Below, one piece after another: positions 26,138-50,587 of a stretch of 64,000 nt of DNA. The position numbers and the translations under genes are program-made. This stretch comes from Lachnoanaerobaculum gingivalis. Lineage in GTDB: Bacteria; Bacillota; Clostridia; Lachnospirales; Lachnospiraceae. The notes beneath the pieces were generated by a model. That model was not told the DNA's origin and searched no databases. It saw only the letters and a program-made list of their open reading frames with translations. The DNA lies in contig NZ_RRCO01000004.1 of the NCBI RefSeq assembly GCF_003862475.1, positions 244,033 to 308,032 on the forward strand, in the 5' to 3' direction. Within the stretch, counting starts at the first letter, position 1; each line of letters opens with the position of its first letter.

Positions 26138-26189
26138 TTTATATTGCAGTACGAAAAGGCAGTATATTTAAAACCAAGGAGATATGCTT

Positions 26190-27977
26190 ATGAGCAAAGG
26201 AATAAAAAACAGGCTGATTATTTTAATATTATTGATTGTGTTTATTGCACTGTATGTAATTACTCATGCAAAAAGAAAACTGATTATAAAGGATAATATA
26301 TTCTATGGTGTTGAGGAGGGAATATTTGAGAGCAAGTTCAGCATGAAAGAGCTGATTGTTCCTACAGGGGTTAAATCAATATCTGCGTATTCCCTTGTAG
26401 GCTGTGAAAATCTGGAAGCCGTGGAATTGCCTGATACACTTGAAAGCATCGGAGAACTTTCATTTATGGGCTGTAGAAAACTTGAGCATATTAAAATACC
26501 CGGAAATGTAAGAGGTATAGGTATAGGGGCATTTTTAGAATGCTCAAATTTAAAAAATATAGAATTACCTGAAGGTTTGGAGAAAATAAATGCTGCAGTA
26601 TTTAAAAACTGTACCTCTTTGGAAAAAATAAGTATTCCGCTTGGGGTAAAGGAGATTGACGAATCTGCATTTTCAACTTGTAGAGAACTGAAGGAAATAG
26701 AGTTGAATGAGGGGCTCGAAAAGATAGGCAGTGAGGCTTTTTTGGGCTGTGGGAAAATGCAGAGCATAAAAATTCCGGATTCTGTGGAGGATATAAATGA
26801 CTTTGCTTTTAAAGATTGTAAGAACCTTTCAAATATAGAAATGTCCAAGGGTATAAAATATATCAGAGAAGGTGCATTTGAAGGTACAAAGTATTATGAG
26901 AGAGGTCTGTGGGAAGATGAGGACGGCATATATATAGGTGATGCTCTGATAAAATATGAGAATAAAGGCAGTGAGATAAGGGTAAGAGAGGGCACAAGAG
27001 TGATTGCAAGTAAAGCCTGTGCCGATTTGCCTGATTTACATACGGTTGAATTGCCTGAAAGTATTATTATTATAGGAAACGGAGCTTTTGTAAACTGTAA
27101 AAGTCTTAAAAATATAAATCTCCCTAAGAATTTAGAATATATTGAAAGCAATGCATTTTTTGAATGTAATATAGAAAGCCTGATTATACCTGCAAGTGTA
27201 AAGAGTATAGGAAGCGAGGCATTTGCCAATTGCAGAAATTTATCGAATGTGGATATGGAAAAGACTCCGGATAGAATAGATGTAGGAGCATTTGAAAATA
27301 CATACTGGCTTGAGCATTTGGAAAAAGATGAATATGGCTGTAAATATTTTCAAAATATACTCTTTGGATATGAAGACGGAAAGAGCCATGTTAAGCTCAG
27401 GGAAGGAATAAAGCGTATAAACGGTGATGTATTTTTTAATTCTTTAAAATTAGAAAAAATAGAGATTCCAAAAAGTGTGGAAATCATAGAAAGGGAAGCT
27501 TTTAGCGGATGCCAAAATTTAAAGGAATGTATATTCGAAGAAGGAAGCAATATTAAGATAATTTATGAGGAAGCTTTTAAAGAATGTAAAAGTCTTAAAG
27601 AAATAGAGATTCCTGAAAGTACGAAATATCTGGGTGGTAAAGCCTTTGAAGACTGTGAATCACTTGAAAAAGTTGTATTTAAGGAAGGCTGTGATATCAA
27701 AATATTAAATATGGGAGTATTTTGGGGTTGCACTGATTTAAAAGAAATTACTTTGCCTTCGAGCTTGGAAGAGGTATATTTTGCTGCTTTTGCACATTGT
27801 GAAAGCCTGGAAGAAATAAGATTTCCGGAAAGTATAAAGTATATAGACATCTCTGCTTTAGATACATGTAAGAACCTAAAGCAAATCGAAGTACCTGTAA
27901 GTATAAAAGAGAATTTTAAGATAGTGAAAAAAATAATTGATTTTGGAGGTGCACACCCTAAAGTTATATACTATTAA
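26190..27977 (+). CDS. BspA-like leucine-rich repeat surface protein 1
   Basis: This 595-residue protein has an N-terminal signal anchor (residues 8-27) and then about 20 LRR_5 repeats of roughly 23 residues with the pattern I-P-x-x-V-x-x-I-x-x-x-A-F-x-x-C-x-x-L, e.g. ELPDTLESIGELSFMGC. These BspA/TpLRR repeats form extracellular solenoids that bind host or matrix proteins in oral and gut bacteria. There is no LPxTG, so anchoring is by the N-terminal helix. Start chosen at ATG 26190 after AAGGAG. Two linker blocks (about residues 240-265 and 375-410) interrupt the solenoid. Confidence 0.85.
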   Translation: MSKGIKNRLIILILLIVFIALYVITHAKRKLIIKDNIFYGVEEGIFESKFSMKELIVPTGVKSISAYSLVGCENLEAVELPDTLESIGELSFMGCRKLEHIKIPGNVRGIGIGAFLECSNLKNIELPEGLEKINAAVFKNCTSLEKISIPLGVKEIDESAFSTCRELKEIELNEGLEKIGSEAFLGCGKMQSIKIPDSVEDINDFAFKDCKNLSNIEMSKGIKYIREGAFEGTKYYERGLWEDEDGIYIGDALIKYENKGSEIRVREGTRVIASKACADLPDLHTVELPESIIIIGNGAFVNCKSLKNINLPKNLEYIESNAFFECNIESLIIPASVKSIGSEAFANCRNLSNVDMEKTPDRIDVGAFENTYWLEHLEKDEYGCKYFQNILFGYEDGKSHVKLREGIKRINGDVFFNSLKLEKIEIPKSVEIIEREAFSGCQNLKECIFEEGSNIKIIYEEAFKECKSLKEIEIPESTKYLGGKAFEDCESLEKVVFKEGCDIKILNMGVFWGCTDLKEITLPSSLEEVYFAAFAHCESLEEIRFPESIKYIDISALDTCKNLKQIEVPVSIKENFKIVKKIIDFGGAHPKVIYY

Positions 27978-28021: not shown

Positions 28022-29848
28022 GTGGTTAAAGGAAATAAAAATGCTAAAATATATGCAATTACTATAACAGGTATAGTAATTATCATATTATTATGTTTCT
28101 TTCTGAGTAATTTAAAATGTAAGCAGCTTATAGAAGATGGTGTTTTTCTTGACATAAAAAGCGGTCTTTTGGAAAAAAGAGACAGCATTACAAAAGTGGA
28201 AATACCAAAAGGAGTTACAGCTATAGGTGGTAGAGCATTTTATGATTGTACCAATCTGGAAAGTATTATTATACCGGAAGGAGTCACAGTCATAGGTGAA
28301 AGCGCATTTTATAATTGTACCAATCTGGAAAGTATTATTATACCGGAAGGAGTCACAGTCATAGGTGAAAGCGCATTTTATAATTGTATCAATCTGGAAA
28401 GTATTATTATACCGGAAGGAGTCACAGTCATAGGCGAAAGAGCATTTTATAATTGTACCAATCTGGAAAGTATTATTATACCGGAAACTGTTAAAAAAAT
28501 AGATATTTATGCTTTTGATAATTGTGTAAAAATAGAGTATATAAAATTACCTGATAATTTGGAAATAATATATACAGGGGCATTTAATAATTGCAGTTCA
28601 TTAAAGAGTATAGAAATTCCCAAGGCTGTGGCTACTGTTTATCCGGAAGCGTTTTTAGATTGTAATTCTTTAGAGGAAGTTTCCTTTTTAGGAAATATAA
28701 TTGAAATAAATAAAAGTGCTTTTGAGGGTTGTGAGAAACTTAAAAAGATAAAATTGCCGGAGAGCCTTGAAAAAATAGATGAACTTGCCTTTAATAATTG
28801 CAGCAGCTTATCAGATATAAATATACCGGAAGGGATAAAAGCTGTGGGGGAAGATGCTTTCTCGGGAACCGATATTCTTAAAAAAACAGATATTGATGAA
28901 TACGGTTGTGTATATATGGGAAAGGTATTGATATACAGTAAGGAAGAAAAAGAGTGTATTAAGATTAAAGATACCACTAAAGTAATTGCAGACGACGTAT
29001 TTGATAATTATGAAAATTTAAAGCAGGTCGAATTTCCGAACAGCTTGGAAAGAATAGGAAATAACAGTTTTAGATCTTGTACATCTTTGGAAGAAATAAG
29101 TATCCCTGAGGGAGTAAAGAGCATAGGGGAATCCGCCTTTATGTATTCAGGATTAAAAAAGGTGGATTTACCTGATACTGTAGTGGATATAGGTGATTAT
29201 GCGTTTATGGAATGTATACATTTATCTGAAATAAATTTGTCGAAGAATATAGAAAATATTGGGCATTGGTGTTTTAGTAATACTGACTATCTGCTAGATA
29301 TGGAGTCTGATGAGTATGGTTGTAAATATGTTGGTGATATACTTCTTGGATACACAGGTAAAGGTGCTAAAAGAATAAAAATTAGAGACGGAACAAGACT
29401 GATAGCGGCAGGGGCTTTTGAAGACAGGGAGTTTATAGAAGGGGTATATATACCTAACAGTGTTGAGATGATGGGAGGGTATGTATTTTATAATTGTTTC
29501 GACTTAAAAGAGGTGTATTTTCAGGAAGGCAGTAAGCTGAGTGAATTAAAGCCGGTGACATTTGGACAATGTATATCTTTGGAAGAAATAGAATTACCGG
29601 AGAATTTAAAGAAAATACAAGATCATGTCTTTATAAATTGTGCTTTTAAAACTATAACAATGCCTGAAAATGTAGAATATGTAGATCCTTATGCTATCAG
29701 TGAATATGATATGCTTGAAGAAGTCAGAGTACCGAAAAAACTGAAAGGTGAGTATTATTTTGGGGACACATATATTATAGACAGTGAATATCATCCGGGA
29801 GATAAATTAAATAAGACTCAGAAAAAACCCGATATTGTATTTTATTAA
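28022..29848 (+). CDS. BspA-like leucine-rich repeat surface protein 2
   Basis: This 608-residue protein starts at GTG 28022 behind GGGGAGG. It has a signal anchor near residues 12-32, then LRR_5 repeats with the same I-P-x-x-V / A-F-x-N-C-x-x-L pattern as the upstream gene, and the same kind of linker block (GCVYMGKVLIY). The N-terminal repeats are nearly identical at the DNA level, unlike the diverged rest. It is a paralogue of the preceding protein and probably co-transcribed. The role is likely surface binding. Confidence 0.85.
   Translation: MVKGNKNAKIYAITITGIVIIILLCFFLSNLKCKQLIEDGVFLDIKSGLLEKRDSITKVEIPKGVTAIGGRAFYDCTNLESIIIPEGVTVIGESAFYNCTNLESIIIPEGVTVIGESAFYNCINLESIIIPEGVTVIGERAFYNCTNLESIIIPETVKKIDIYAFDNCVKIEYIKLPDNLEIIYTGAFNNCSSLKSIEIPKAVATVYPEAFLDCNSLEEVSFLGNIIEINKSAFEGCEKLKKIKLPESLEKIDELAFNNCSSLSDINIPEGIKAVGEDAFSGTDILKKTDIDEYGCVYMGKVLIYSKEEKECIKIKDTTKVIADDVFDNYENLKQVEFPNSLERIGNNSFRSCTSLEEISIPEGVKSIGESAFMYSGLKKVDLPDTVVDIGDYAFMECIHLSEINLSKNIENIGHWCFSNTDYLLDMESDEYGCKYVGDILLGYTGKGAKRIKIRDGTRLIAAGAFEDREFIEGVYIPNSVEMMGGYVFYNCFDLKEVYFQEGSKLSELKPVTFGQCISLEEIELPENLKKIQDHVFINCAFKTITMPENVEYVDPYAISEYDMLEEVRVPKKLKGEYYFGDTYIIDSEYHPGDKLNKTQKKPDIVFY
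28222..28490 (+). repeat. four near-identical 69-bp tandem LRR-coding units
   Basis: CCAATCTGGAAAG recurs at 28251, 28320, 28389 (with one T for C) and 28458, a period of exactly 69 bases or 23 codons. The units differ at only a few bases, so the expansion is recent, in frame, and open to further gain or loss. Confidence 0.9.
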
Positions 29849-31837: not shown

Positions 31838-32305
31838 ATGGACGAGAAAACAAATGTAATGAGACTTTTGGATCAAAAGAAGATAAAGTATAATCATTAT
31901 TCATATATAGATACTCCGGCTACAAACGGTGTGGAAGTGGCACAGTTGCTTGGACAGGATGAGAAAAAGGTTTTTAAGACATTGGTAACGGTTGGAAAGA
32001 GTAAGGCAAACTATGTATTTGTAATACCGGTGTCAGAGGAGCTTAATTTAAAAGAGGCGGCAAAAGCTGTAGGTGAAAAATCTATAGAAATGTTGAAGTC
32101 AAAGGACTTACTGCCTCTTACAGGATATATACATGGGGGTTGTTCTCCGATAGGTATGAAAAAGAGATTTACTACTGTAGTTGATTCCACAGCTTTGAAT
32201 TATGAAAATATTATATTCAGTGCAGGTAAAATCGGTTATCAGGTTGAGATGAATCCAAAGGAGTTGAAAAAATTTGTGCCTGTAAGTTTTGCTTCGTTGA
32301 CATAG
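31838..32305 (+). CDS. ybaK: YbaK/EbsC-type Cys-tRNA(Pro) deacylase
   Basis: This 155-residue protein is an INS-type editing domain: YSYIDTPATNGVEVAQLLG, VFKTLVT, and GYIHGGCSPIGMKKRF, the conserved loop of YbaK proteins that hydrolyse mischarged Cys-tRNA(Pro). AAAGGAAAG precedes the ATG. It sits 9 bases before the GTPase-NYN gene, so the two translation-quality proteins are likely co-expressed. Confidence 0.9.
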   Translation: MDEKTNVMRLLDQKKIKYNHYSYIDTPATNGVEVAQLLGQDEKKVFKTLVTVGKSKANYVFVIPVSEELNLKEAAKAVGEKSIEMLKSKDLLPLTGYIHGGCSPIGMKKRFTTVVDSTALNYENIIFSAGKIGYQVEMNPKELKKFVPVSFASLT

Positions 32306-32314
32306 GTTAAGCTC

Positions 32315-34924
32315 ATGATAAATGTTGGTGTATTGGCACATGTAGATGCCGGAAAAACTACATTGATAGAGGCGATACTCTACAAGACAGGAAAGCTTAG
32401 AAAAACAGGAAGAGTGGATTTCGGTGACAGCTTTTTGGATAATGATGAATATGAAAGAAAAAGAGGAATAACTATATTCTCAAAGCTTGCAAGAACAAGT
32501 ATAAATGGAATAGAAATAAATATAATTGATACTCCGGGACATGTGGATTTCAGTGCCGAAATGGAAAGAACCATATCCATACTTGATATGGCAATTTTGG
32601 TAATCAGCGGAAGTGAGGGGGTACAATCACATTCATATACACTTTTCAGATTATTAAGAGAAGCAAATATACCTACTGTAATATTTGTAAATAAAATAGA
32701 CAGTGATAAGTTTGACAAGAATAAAGTATTGGGGGGACTTAAAAAATCTCTTTCAAAAAATATAGTGGACTTTTCAAAGGAAAATAAGATGCTTTTAGAA
32801 GAGATTGCAGCCTGTGATGAGAATCTAATAGAAAAGTTTATCGAAGGGGAAGAAATAACAAAATCTGATATAAGTTTTTGCATAGAGAATTCAAAAGTAT
32901 TTCCGACAATATTCGGTTCAGGATTAAAACTTATTAATATAGAAGGAATACTTGAACTTATAAAAGAGTATGTACATGAAAAAACTTATCCGGATGAACT
33001 TTCAGGAATAATATATAAGATAAAATATGACGAGAACGGAAACAGACTTTCCTTTATAAAACTTCTTGGTGGAATTTTACAGGTTAAGGATACACTCTTT
33101 GATGAAAAAATCAATCAGATAAGAGCTTATGACGGTGAAAAATATAATGCAACAGATAAAGCTTTTGCAGGCGACATTGTAGCGGTCACCGGGCTTTCAA
33201 AAGTTCATGCCGGAGACACATTCGGAGATGTAAAAAGACCTGTACAAAAGCTGTTACCGGTACTCAGTTACAATATGGTATTTCCGGATGACATAAGCAT
33301 AAATCAAATATACCCGAAGCTTTTACAGATATTTGATGAGATACCTGAAATCAGAATGGAGTATGACGAGGAACTTTCAAAAATCAGGGTGAATTTGATG
33401 GGTGAAGTTCAGATAGATCTTATAAAAAATCTTATAGGTGAAAGATTTGGAATTAATTGTGATCTTATAGACGGAGGTATCATTTATAAGGAAACTATAA
33501 GCGGATATATTGAGGGAGTAGGGCATTTTGAGCCGTTAAGGCATTATGCCGAAGTGCATATACTTATCAGTGAAGGCGAGAGAGGAAGCGGCATAGTTTT
33601 TGTAAATGAGGTGTCGGATGATGAACTTCCAAAGAACTTTCAGAGGCAGGTAAGAAATATTGTTGAGACATCTAAGTTTAGAGGTGTACTTACAGGTAGC
33701 GAGCTAACAGATGTGGTGCTTACTTTGGTAGCAGGCAGAGCACATGAAAAACATACCGAGGGTGGTGATTTTCTTGAGGCTGTAAACAGAGCTGTAAGGC
33801 ATGGACTGATGTATGCCAAATCAATTTTATTGGAGCCATATTATGACTTTGAAATAAACATACCTATGACTTCTCTGGGTAGGCTTTTAAATGATTTAAA
33901 CAATATGAATGCAGAGGATATAAGCTATGAGGGTGGAGAGACTCTCAGAGTGACGGGATATGCACCTACAGTCAATATACAAAACTATGGAAGCACTCTT
34001 TTATCATATACCAAGGGACTTGGTCAAATAGGTTTCAGTCTAAGAGGATTTTTACCATGTCATAATGCGGAGGAGATTATAGAAAAAAGCTTATATATGG
34101 CGGAATATGATACAAAGAATACTCCTGATTCCGTATTTTGCTCTCATGGTGAGAGTTTTATAGTGCCGTGGAGTGAAGTATTTAACTATATGCATTTACC
34201 GCTAAAGAAGTTTGAACTTGTAAAGGAAGAGGAAAAGATAGAGACCGTAAGATCAACCTATGATGCCACAAAAGCCGACAGTGAAGAGCTTATGGCCATA
34301 TTTGAAAGGACTTACGGTAAGGTAACTCCAAGGATAGGAGACTGGGATGCACCTGTAAAAAGAACACCTGAAAAAGAGTATGTTTATAAAGAAAGAGCAA
34401 AAAAGAAACATTATCTGTTGGTTGACGGTTATAATATTATTTTTGCTTCAAAGTCGCTAAATGAACTTGCACAGATAAATATTGATGCGGCAAGAGACAG
34501 ACTGATTGAACTTCTGATAGATTATAAGGCCTACAAGGACTATGAGATTATTCTGGTATTTGATGCTTACAGGCTTGTAAATCATCCTACGGAGGTGCAG
34601 AATTTCTCGGGTGTATATGTAGTATATACAAAGACTGCGGAAACGGCAGATCAGTATATAGAAAAGACCACGCATGAAATGATAAAAAGATATGATGTCA
34701 CTGTAGCTACATCAGACGGTATTGAGCAGATCATTATAAGAGGTAAGGGGGCAATACTTATCTCGGCAAGGGAGTTTTTAAAAGACTTGGAAGACACTAA
34801 AGAGGCTTTCAGAAAAGAACATATAGAAAAGACTTCAGTTACAAACAGATTGTTTGATTCTTTAGAAGTAGAGCTAAAAGAAAAAATAGAAAATATCAGA
34901 CTTGGTAAAAAAGAAGAGCCCTAG
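32315..34924 (+). CDS. TetM-like translational GTPase fused to a YacP/Rae1-type NYN nuclease domain
   Basis: This is an 869-residue fusion. Residues 1 to about 650 are an EF-G/TetM-type GTPase with intact motifs: AHVDAGKT (8-15), RGITIF (50-55), DTPGHVDF (72-79), NKID (126-129), and a domain IV/V half including LLEPYYDFEINIPM. Residues about 698-845 are a NYN/PIN-like domain: LLVDGYNII (Asp704), LVFDAYR (Asp750), ETADQYIEK (Asp779), VATSDGIEQ (Asp801). These match conserved blocks of Bacillus YacP/Rae1, an endoribonuclease acting in the ribosomal A site. The C-terminal tail is helical and charged. Inference: the GTPase half places the nuclease on the ribosome. True tetracycline resistance is possible but less likely, because the C-terminus differs from TetM. 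It follows ybaK by 9 bases. Confidence 0.88.
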   Translation: MINVGVLAHVDAGKTTLIEAILYKTGKLRKTGRVDFGDSFLDNDEYERKRGITIFSKLARTSINGIEINIIDTPGHVDFSAEMERTISILDMAILVISGSEGVQSHSYTLFRLLREANIPTVIFVNKIDSDKFDKNKVLGGLKKSLSKNIVDFSKENKMLLEEIAACDENLIEKFIEGEEITKSDISFCIENSKVFPTIFGSGLKLINIEGILELIKEYVHEKTYPDELSGIIYKIKYDENGNRLSFIKLLGGILQVKDTLFDEKINQIRAYDGEKYNATDKAFAGDIVAVTGLSKVHAGDTFGDVKRPVQKLLPVLSYNMVFPDDISINQIYPKLLQIFDEIPEIRMEYDEELSKIRVNLMGEVQIDLIKNLIGERFGINCDLIDGGIIYKETISGYIEGVGHFEPLRHYAEVHILISEGERGSGIVFVNEVSDDELPKNFQRQVRNIVETSKFRGVLTGSELTDVVLTLVAGRAHEKHTEGGDFLEAVNRAVRHGLMYAKSILLEPYYDFEINIPMTSLGRLLNDLNNMNAEDISYEGGETLRVTGYAPTVNIQNYGSTLLSYTKGLGQIGFSLRGFLPCHNAEEIIEKSLYMAEYDTKNTPDSVFCSHGESFIVPWSEVFNYMHLPLKKFELVKEEEKIETVRSTYDATKADSEELMAIFERTYGKVTPRIGDWDAPVKRTPEKEYVYKERAKKKHYLLVDGYNIIFASKSLNELAQINIDAARDRLIELLIDYKAYKDYEIILVFDAYRLVNHPTEVQNFSGVYVVYTKTAETADQYIEKTTHEMIKRYDVTVATSDGIEQIIIRGKGAILISAREFLKDLEDTKEAFRKEHIEKTSVTNRLFDSLEVELKEKIENIRLGKKEEP

Positions 34925-48484: not shown

Positions 48485-50587
48485 ATGAAGGTTTATGAAA
48501 CTAAACAGATTCGTAACGTTGTACTGCTTGGCCATGGAGGCTCGGGTAAGACTACAGTAGCAGAGGCCATGAGCTTTGTTGCAGGAAATATTTCAAAGAT
48601 GGGAAGTATTTCAAGCGGAAATACCATCAGCGATTATGACAAAGAAGAAATTAAAAGAGGTTTTTCCATCAGTACATCTTTAGTTCCGGTAGAATATGAA
48701 GGAGATACCGGAAGTGTAAAGATAAATCTCTTGGACACTCCGGGATATTTCGACTTTGTAGGCGAGGTGGAAGAAGCCGTATCAGCTGCAGACGCTGCCA
48801 TTATTGTAGTCAATTGCAAGGCCGGAATTGAAGTAGGTACAGTAAAAGCATGGGAGTTGTGCGAAGAATACGGTTTACCTAGAATATTCTTTGTAACAAA
48901 TATGGACGATGACAAGGCAAGCTATCGTGAACTGCTTTTGAAGCTTGAAACACGCTTCGGAAGAAAAGTGGCTCCTTTCCATCTTCCAATCAGAGAAAAC
49001 GAAAAGTTCGTAGGATTTGTAAATGTCGTAAAGATGAAGGGTAGAAGATTTACAAACCTATCAGATTATGTAGAGTGTGAGATACCTGATTATGTTGAAG
49101 CCAACTTAAAGATTGCAAGAGAGGCCTTGATGGAGGCCGTTGCCGAGACAAGCGAAGAATACATGGAAAGATATCTTTCAGGTGAGGAATTCAGTGATGA
49201 TGAAATTTCAACAGCACTCAAAGAAAATATTTGCAACGGAGATATCGTGCCTGTAATGATGGGTTCAGGAGTGGACGCACAGGGATTTAAGGCACTTATG
49301 ATGGCAATTGAAAAGTATTTCCCGTCACCTGATTATAAAGAGTGTGTGGGAGTAGACGTAAGCAACGGTGAGCATTTTACAGCAAAATATAATAAAGAGG
49401 TTTCATTATCCGCAAGAGTATTTAAGACAATCGTGGATCCTTTCATAGGAAAATACTCATTGGTTAAGATTTGTACAGGTACACTGAAGCCTGACAGTGC
49501 AATCTATAATGTAGGTAAGGAAACAGAGGAGAAATCCGGAAAGATTTATGTACTCAGAGGAAAGAACGCTATAGAAGTACCTGAGCTTGTTGCCGGTGAT
49601 ATCGGCGCTATGGCTAAGCTTAGTGCAACAACTACAGGTGATACTATTGCGTTAAAGAATGCACCTATCCTTTATCATGGACCAAAGATCTCATCACCAT
49701 ATACATGTATGAGATATAAGATCGTAAACAAGGGTGAAGAGGATAAACTTTCATCAGGTCTGTCAAAACTTATGGAAGAAGATTTGACATTAAAGCATAT
49801 GAACGATACTTTAAACAGACAAACTCTTCTTTACGGAATAGGTGATCAACAACTTGAAATTGTAGTTAGCAAACTTTTAGATAGATATAAAGTAAAGATA
49901 GAACTTTCAAGACCTAAGGTAGCTTTCAAAGAGACTATCAGACAAAAGGTTGAGGCTGCCGGAAGATATAAGAAGCAATCAGGTGGACACGGTCAGTTCG
50001 GTGATGTAAAGATGAGCTTTGAACCTTCAGGAGATCTTGAGAAGCCATATGTATTTGAGGAGACTGTATTCGGAGGTTCGGTACCTAAGAATTATTTCCC
50101 TGCAGTTGAAAAAGGAGTGGCTGAGTGCTGTATTAAGGGACCTTTGGCCGCATATCCTGTAGTAGGTGTAAAGGCAGTACTTTTGGACGGTTCATATCAC
50201 CCTGTTGATTCATCTGAAATGGCATTTAAGATGGCTGCAACAATAGCATTTAAGGACGGATTTATGAAGGCCGCACCTGTGCTTTTAGAGCCTATTTATA
50301 CAGTAAGTGTAATAGTTCCTGATAAGTTTACAGGTGATGTTATGGGAGATCTCAACAAAAGACGTGGTAGAGTTCTCGGTATGGAGTCAATAAATCACGG
50401 AAAACAGCTTATAAGAGCCGATGTTCCTATGTTGGAGCTTTTTGGATACAATACCGAGCTTCGTTCAATGACCGGAGGTATGGGTGTATTCAGCTATGAA
50501 TTTGCAAGGTATGAGCAGACACCGGGAGATATCCAGAAGAAGGAAGTGGAAGCAAGAGCAAGTAAGCTTGAAAATGATACGGAATAA
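48485..50587 (+). CDS. elongation factor G paralogue with altered GTPase motifs
   Basis: This 700-residue protein has the complete EF-G domain order, with domain IV-V blocks such as GGHGQFGDVKMSFEP, VPKNYFPAVEKG and SYHPVDSSEMAFKMAA. The G motifs depart from standard EF-G: GHGGSGKT in place of AHIDAGKT, DTPGYFDF for DTPGHVDF and TNMDDD for NKMD. It is therefore a second, non-housekeeping EF-G. Its role (ribosome recycling, stress) is unknown, and it is not next to rpsL/rpsG. AAGGAGGG precedes the ATG. Confidence 0.88.
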   Translation: MKVYETKQIRNVVLLGHGGSGKTTVAEAMSFVAGNISKMGSISSGNTISDYDKEEIKRGFSISTSLVPVEYEGDTGSVKINLLDTPGYFDFVGEVEEAVSAADAAIIVVNCKAGIEVGTVKAWELCEEYGLPRIFFVTNMDDDKASYRELLLKLETRFGRKVAPFHLPIRENEKFVGFVNVVKMKGRRFTNLSDYVECEIPDYVEANLKIAREALMEAVAETSEEYMERYLSGEEFSDDEISTALKENICNGDIVPVMMGSGVDAQGFKALMMAIEKYFPSPDYKECVGVDVSNGEHFTAKYNKEVSLSARVFKTIVDPFIGKYSLVKICTGTLKPDSAIYNVGKETEEKSGKIYVLRGKNAIEVPELVAGDIGAMAKLSATTTGDTIALKNAPILYHGPKISSPYTCMRYKIVNKGEEDKLSSGLSKLMEEDLTLKHMNDTLNRQTLLYGIGDQQLEIVVSKLLDRYKVKIELSRPKVAFKETIRQKVEAAGRYKKQSGGHGQFGDVKMSFEPSGDLEKPYVFEETVFGGSVPKNYFPAVEKGVAECCIKGPLAAYPVVGVKAVLLDGSYHPVDSSEMAFKMAATIAFKDGFMKAAPVLLEPIYTVSVIVPDKFTGDVMGDLNKRRGRVLGMESINHGKQLIRADVPMLELFGYNTELRSMTGGMGVFSYEFARYEQTPGDIQKKEVEARASKLENDTE

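Follow-up and report, generated by a model that had tools for sequence, protein, structure and literature searches.

An EF-G/Tet-like translation factor with a Rae1-type nuclease domain in genomes lacking a separate rae1 gene

The stretch of DNA analysed here, called the window throughout, comprises 64,000 nucleotides of the Lachnoanaerobaculum gingivalis genome. A single ATG-initiated frame on its forward strand, without internal stop codons, encodes a protein of 869 amino acids (Table 1). A preliminary description of the window had read this frame as an EF-G/TetM-type GTPase joined to an NYN nuclease domain, and profile searches bear this out: the protein matches the Pfam models for GTP_EFTU and for EF-G-type domains II, IV and V and carries the G motifs AHVDAGKT, RGIT, DTPGH and NKID, placing it in the EF-G-type translational GTPase superfamily. 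Domain III of the GTPase gave no Pfam match in the window protein. When 19 fused proteins were aligned, most G-motif residues were invariant; the exceptions include A12 and position 128, which is M in most of the 19 and I in the window protein. Several unfused relatives have their C-terminus just past the point where the subfamily add-on ends in the window protein. A genome of the same genus encodes a protein 95% identical across all 869 residues. The fusion architecture is real, and a chance origin is excluded. The full-length model had a mean pLDDT of 80.2 and a pTM of 0.62, and its PDB alignments covered residues 1-617; the NYN part was therefore modelled and searched separately.

Table 1. 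The fusion gene, its parts and the gene upstream (window coordinates; residues numbered on the 869-residue protein)
Feature	Position	Strand	Basis
Whole fusion gene, 869 aa	32315..34924	+	ORF list, profile searches
Translational GTPase G domain, residues 1-220	32315..32974	+	Pfam GTP_EFTU residues 2-220, 2.1e-49; G1-G4 motifs
EF-G-type domain II, residues 229-304	32999..33226	+	Pfam EF-G_D2
EF-G-type domain IV, residues 389-501	33479..33817	+	Pfam EFG_IV 3.9e-15
Domain IV tip loop, residues 474-486, GRAHEKHTEGGDF	33734..33772	+	Alignment
EF-G-type domain V, residues 505-584	33827..34066	+	Pfam EFG_C
C-terminal add-on of the GTPase subfamily, residues 585-626	34067..34192	+	Motif like SVFCxxGxxxxVxWxEVxxxMH
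Linker, residues 627-698, sequence variable	34193..34408	+	Alignment, model pLDDT
NYN_YacP (Rae1-type) nuclease domain, residues 701-862; Asp704, Asp750, Asp779, Asp801	34415..34900	+	Pfam, PDB, Foldseek
ybaK/ebsC (Cys-tRNA(Pro) deacylase), ends 9 bases upstream of the fusion	31838..32305	+	Context only

The C-terminal domain matched the Pfam profile NYN_YacP at 4.7e-46, with 157 bits against a curated cutoff of 24.6. Searched by sequence against the PDB (E<=0.1), it found only the YacP structures 5mq9 (9.7e-21) and 5mq8, both titled 'Rae1 (YacP) from Bacillus subtilis'. Modelled alone (mean pLDDT 86.8), it again found only these two entries in Foldseek at E<=0.001 (9.3e-11), with TM scores of 0.68-0.70 by query and rmsd values of 8.2-8.9, and is thus of the Rae1 fold. 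D704, D750, D779 and D801, which the domain shares with B. subtilis Rae1, were invariant in 34/34 fused and 30/30 stand-alone NYN sequences, identical or contained sequences being entered once. The Rae1/YacP homology and the presence of these acidic residues in the window protein had been proposed from the sequence alone, and both hold. The accounts of Rae1 seen in part describe it as an endonuclease that acts, or is proposed to act, on mRNA in the ribosomal A site.

Between the window gene and its same-genus copy, the NYN domain is the most constrained part (dN 0.007, dS 0.53), the corresponding values being 0.018 and 0.50 for the linker, 0.025 and 0.41 for the GTPase, and 0.041 and 0.74 for the terminal tail. 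The fused NYN domains formed one clade against the stand-alone ones (SH-aLRT 99) in the smaller of two NYN trees, on which we base this result. An enlarged tree required four changes between fused and stand-alone labels where a single clade would give one, and split and cut genes scored as stand-alone may be the cause.

The C-terminal tail of Rae1, about the last 25 residues, was missing in 13/33 fused and 0/27 stand-alone NYN domains; these counts cover 33 of 34 fused and 27 of 30 stand-alone sequences (the remainder were without the letters TSD), and they are biased, since the stand-alone set consists mostly of best-scoring phylum matches, which favours full-length tails, and the sequences are related and hence not independent. 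An RR pair near the C-terminal end was present in 1/34 fused versus 19/30 stand-alone domains, and 44 of 115 long-frame NYN matches in a survey of the family stopped before profile position 152. In the portion of PMC6613710 seen, an R166P change in the terminal tail of B. subtilis Rae1 is read as a loss of function. The short tails and RR loss in the fusions fit a docking tail made dispensable by tethering, and tethering to the GTPase may, on this comparison of sequences, replace the docking function of the Rae1 tail.

The GTPase half has TetM as its closest solved relative by sequence (1.1e-73), but the window protein passed 0/5 Tet models among those listed: it scored 392.5 bits against a cutoff of 775 for tet_protect, 278.7 against 1100 for TetM/W and 242.9 against 1420 for Tet(M), and was below cutoff for Otr(A) and Tet(Q). 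Three of its relatives also fell below Tet models, among the matches listed. The window's genome contains a separate tet(M) gene (G000:C5:524902-526725) that exceeds the Tet(M) cutoff, with 1496 bits against 1420. EF-G and EF-G-like factors differ from the window protein as well, which stays below the EF-G cutoffs among those listed and has its own C-terminal add-on and NYN domain. An EF-G paralogue is encoded elsewhere in the window, at 48485-50584 (NF009381, 833 bits against 583).

In most members, the tip loop of domain IV has the sequence GRAHxKHTEGGDF or a close variant. His477 of the window protein aligns with the tip His of EF-G, and 33/34 fused proteins have His there; the loop is unlike that of the Tet(M) from the same genome, YYSPVSTPADF. 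The column of TetM Pro509 holds K in 30, S in 2, Q in 1 and V in 1 of the 34 fused proteins and Pro in none, which is a weak test. Pro509 overlaps tetracycline according to the part of PMC7456112 seen, while an excerpt of PMC4750697 reports that the triple mutant S508A/P509A/V510A of TetM can stay active, so the tip sequence alone does not decide for or against resistance. Taken with the model scores, these features suggest that the fusion is probably not a tetracycline-resistance gene. The suspicion raised earlier that such proteins are mislabelled in databases is supported by public records: H2 is named as TetM/TetW/TetO/TetS family, H1 as 'translation factor GTPase family protein'.

The window's own genome has one NYN_YacP match, the fusion itself. 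In a phylum sample of 299 genomes, 163 had an NYN_YacP match (two matches being below cutoff) and 22 had the GTPase at E<=1e-80, 18 of them fused and 4 unfused. The fusion was the sole NYN_YacP match in 18/18 fused genomes, compared with 145/281 other genomes that had a match (Fisher 5e-6, a test that ignores kinship where fusions cluster in a few families). A search of genome contigs likewise found the fusion as the only NYN_YacP match in 13/13 named fused genomes, giving 31/31 for two sets that may overlap.

How widely the fusion is spread, a survey suggested in the preliminary description, was measured in 140 genomes of the family. NYN was present in 127/140. The frame that contains it had 848 codons or more in 114/140 (114/127 of the NYN-bearing genomes), 516-690 codons in 3 genomes and 174-271 codons in 10; 'fused' is defined here by frame length rather than by inspection of each GTPase. 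Stop codons fell within the matched stretch in 15 long-frame rows, which we read as the search continuing beyond the point where short tails stop. G347 and G378 each gave an additional short NYN match; we read both as fragments, because each lies at a contig end and that of G378 is below cutoff. Four loci cut at contig ends (L079, L085, L087 and L101) were left unclassed. The 13 family genomes without NYN had no GTPase at E<=1e-60 either, a pattern expected from loss of the fused gene in one piece.

Three reference genomes have stand-alone rae1 flanked by rlmB and sigH. Among eight fused genomes examined, rlmB was found in 8/8 and rae1 beside it in 0/8; rlmB and sigH are direct neighbours in 6/8, and rlmB has other neighbours in the window's own genome and in G065. 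The vacancy of this slot is secure because each fused genome has a single NYN_YacP match, leaving nothing hidden. The fusion does not occupy the place after rlmB and before sigH in the window's genome or the seven other fused genomes, and is not a positional orthologue of rae1. The fusion and the stand-alone gene are mutually exclusive in the genomes seen. They differ in arrangement: Rae1 is free-standing and encoded after rlmB, whereas the NYN domain of the window protein is C-terminal to a GTPase. NCBIfam models confirmed rlmB, cysS and sigH in one genome with stand-alone rae1, rlmB and cysS in the window's genome, and sigH in a second fused genome; the remaining operon genes and genomes took their names from BLAST comparison with these checked genes. 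Further genes at these loci we take, by eye, to be mrnC, thyX, cysE, gltX, ispD, ispF, nusG and ribosomal protein genes, of which mrnC had no NCBIfam match.

Two of the ten short-frame family genomes were set apart. G395 has its NYN and GTPase matches at the starts of two contigs. G350 encodes a GTPase (711 aa) and an NYN protein (190 aa) in overlapping frames on one strand (L267 1017-1586, 1567-3699), which may be a natural split, a frameshift or a sequencing error. A short NYN gene follows rlmB in 7/8 of the other same-family genomes (six seen at the locus, G454 by coordinates), and G365 has it elsewhere. Six of these eight carry an unfused sister-clade GTPase and G371 has a 32% relative only; G322, with rae1 in the rlmB slot, has no such GTPase. 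In the phylum sample, too, the GTPase is missing from most genomes with a stand-alone rae1, so Rae1 in general needs no such partner.

Of 14 genomes checked that carry an unfused member of the GTPase subfamily, 12 have a separate NYN gene (G178, G202, G284, G365, G334, G360, G399, G454, G339, Collinsella, Neobacillus and Intestinibacter). G211 and Paenibacillus jilunlii, both of which have NYN, were left out of the 14 because they lie outside the subfamily in the tree. In both Bifidobacterium genomes (one a metagenome assembly), the GTPase is present and a search of the genome gave no NYN match, which means that the GTPase can function by itself. Of 110 sequences, 51 entered a first GTPase tree, from which window duplicates, partial copies, L079 and most EF-G-like rows were omitted; a second omitted seven fragments. 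The second tree contained an unfused clade of 12 rows (support 96) and a mixed clade (support 95), in which 34 rows are fused and 9 unfused. Three of these nine come from G350 and G395, whose genes are split or cut; the other six, from Bifidobacterium (two), Collinsella, Ligilactobacillus and two viral contigs, are nested among fused sequences in a way that suggests NYN loss after transfer. This loss is unproven, as an AU test does not reject a single fused clade (p-AU 0.131).

The architecture itself has been reported before. In the part of Atkinson 2015 (PMC4342817) seen, a YacP-like NYN domain is said to have been acquired by Tet proteins in ten clostridiales species, a resistance role is suggested for these proteins, and rRNA and tRNA maturation is mentioned as an earlier proposal for this domain. 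Compared by that partial description, the group has the same architecture as the window protein, which very probably belongs to it. The group was filed as Tet, and the text seen contains no replacement of Rae1. Among the literature matches listed, the fusion is spoken of in that paper only. Having been reported in 2015, the architecture is not new; what is added here is that the fusion replaces stand-alone Rae1.

The domain content, the conserved acidic residues, the strong constraint, the single clade of fused nucleases and the replacement of rae1 are observations. On balance, and with modest confidence, we read the gene as this lineage's Rae1-type mRNA endonuclease, delivered to ribosomes by an EF-G/Tet-like translation factor; ribosome binding, the order of events, the substrate, cleavage and timing by GTP are our proposals. 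rae1 would have moved from its place between rlmB and sigH to the C-terminus of such a factor. On a 70S ribosome that is stalled or blocked by a drug and whose A site is empty, the GTPase would bind the factor site, domain IV would probe or clear the A site, and GTP hydrolysis would lead domain IV to withdraw. The linker of roughly 70 residues would keep the nuclease close, allowing it to enter the vacated A site and cut the codon, after which rescue such as trans-translation could follow. Domain IV of a TetM/EF-G-type factor should fill the A site, which the nuclease could then not share, a difficulty for the self-targeting factor proposed in the preliminary description. As both need the same space, a sequential model of clearing, withdrawal and cutting is required, and the nuclease would act after domain IV leaves, or elsewhere. 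The long linker would permit such a sequence; its residues 634-660 and 662-695 have pLDDT <50 in the full-length model, which therefore gives the NYN domain no fixed placement and lends delivery to the A site no structural support. More tentatively, and with considerable doubt, we suggest a two-stroke triage in which the GTP-gated factor would inspect and clear a blocked A site and the tethered nuclease would then cut the codon unless the ribosome has resumed. Rae1 would then be delivered and timed by GTP hydrolysis, no longer finding stalled ribosomes by itself. To our knowledge, GTP-timed delivery is not a known control of A-site nucleases.

The NYN domain might instead do the ordinary job of Rae1 and the GTPase an unrelated EF-G-like job, with a linker that does no more than co-express them. 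A long linker of low model confidence would suit such a passive fusion, as would the separate NYN genes in 12/14 genomes with an unfused subfamily member and the Bifidobacterium GTPases without NYN. We consider it unlikely, given the single frame of at least 848 codons in 114/127 NYN-bearing family genomes, the vacated rae1 slot in 8/8 fused genomes and the shortened NYN tail, which suggests dependence on the partner. The 2015 suggestion, Tet-type protection from tetracycline-like drugs with NYN adding an RNase step, is favoured by the kinship with TetM and by public records that use a Tet name. We judge it improbable: all five listed Tet models were missed, a gene of the same genome exceeds the Tet(M) cutoff, 33/34 fused proteins have an EF-G-like tip His and none has Pro at the Pro509 column, and presence in 114/140 family genomes is more like that of a core gene. 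A third alternative is that the GTPase controls the processing of rRNA, tRNA or another RNA and that the A-site mRNA is not the target. This would accord with the maturation role once proposed for YacP-like NYN domains (PMC4342817, seen in part), but among relatives whose role has been described the closest is Rae1, which cuts mRNA in the A site, and we regard this reading as very improbable.

If delivery of a Rae1-type nuclease by the translation factor is correct, a gene carried by the majority of genomes in a large family, and sometimes labelled tetracycline resistance, would be a translation quality-control enzyme, and resistance annotation could be cleaned up. It would also offer direct access to how Rae1 chooses ribosomes. 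The fusion points to a partner factor and to where to search. The contrast within one family, with the fusion and a vacant slot in some genomes and a separate GTPase and rae1 in the slot in others, makes the link testable.

The surroundings of the fusion were also compared. The preliminary description had pointed to ybaK as a functional neighbour, a claim that is not supported: in the single same-genus genome the fusion is flanked by ybaK, radA, feoB and a P-type ATPase gene, whereas none of the four was a neighbour at any of 27 other loci (6 genomes with longer flanks and 21 loci, six of the 21 being unfused relatives and some having short flanks). With adjacency confined to the genus, the neighbourhood was rejected as functional evidence. 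Across 22 loci compared, no protein family occurred in more than three apart from the fusion protein itself. A defence system was likewise set aside, PADLOC giving no match at E<=0.01. The window also encodes two adjacent long leucine-rich repeat proteins (26184-27977 and 28022-29848, assigned by eye), presumably of the BspA kind.

Two records named 'Bacteriophage sp.' hold long relatives covering >90% of the query. The relative in MT835514.1 is fused, and five of five tested flank proteins are of bacterial type (AddB, subtilase, ZIP, a Glu-type tRNA synthetase and an FGGY kinase); the record looks like bacterial DNA, and phage carriage was rejected for it. Five flank proteins of the other record had no Pfam match at 1e-10. 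Of 51 loci from a scan of viral contigs, three are NYN-less subfamily members close to the start of the stretch covered, and many of the remaining loci are Tet-like or EF-G-like by identity and range. Ligilactobacillus salivarius accounts for 13/15 plasmid matches, among the matches listed, and its plasmid NZ_CP101531.1 carries an NYN-less relative beside rpsN that is labelled tetracycline resistance. In a 252 kb plasmid record of Agathobacter rectalis (NZ_CP143948.1), the fused gene adjoins a BrnT/CopG toxin-antitoxin pair.
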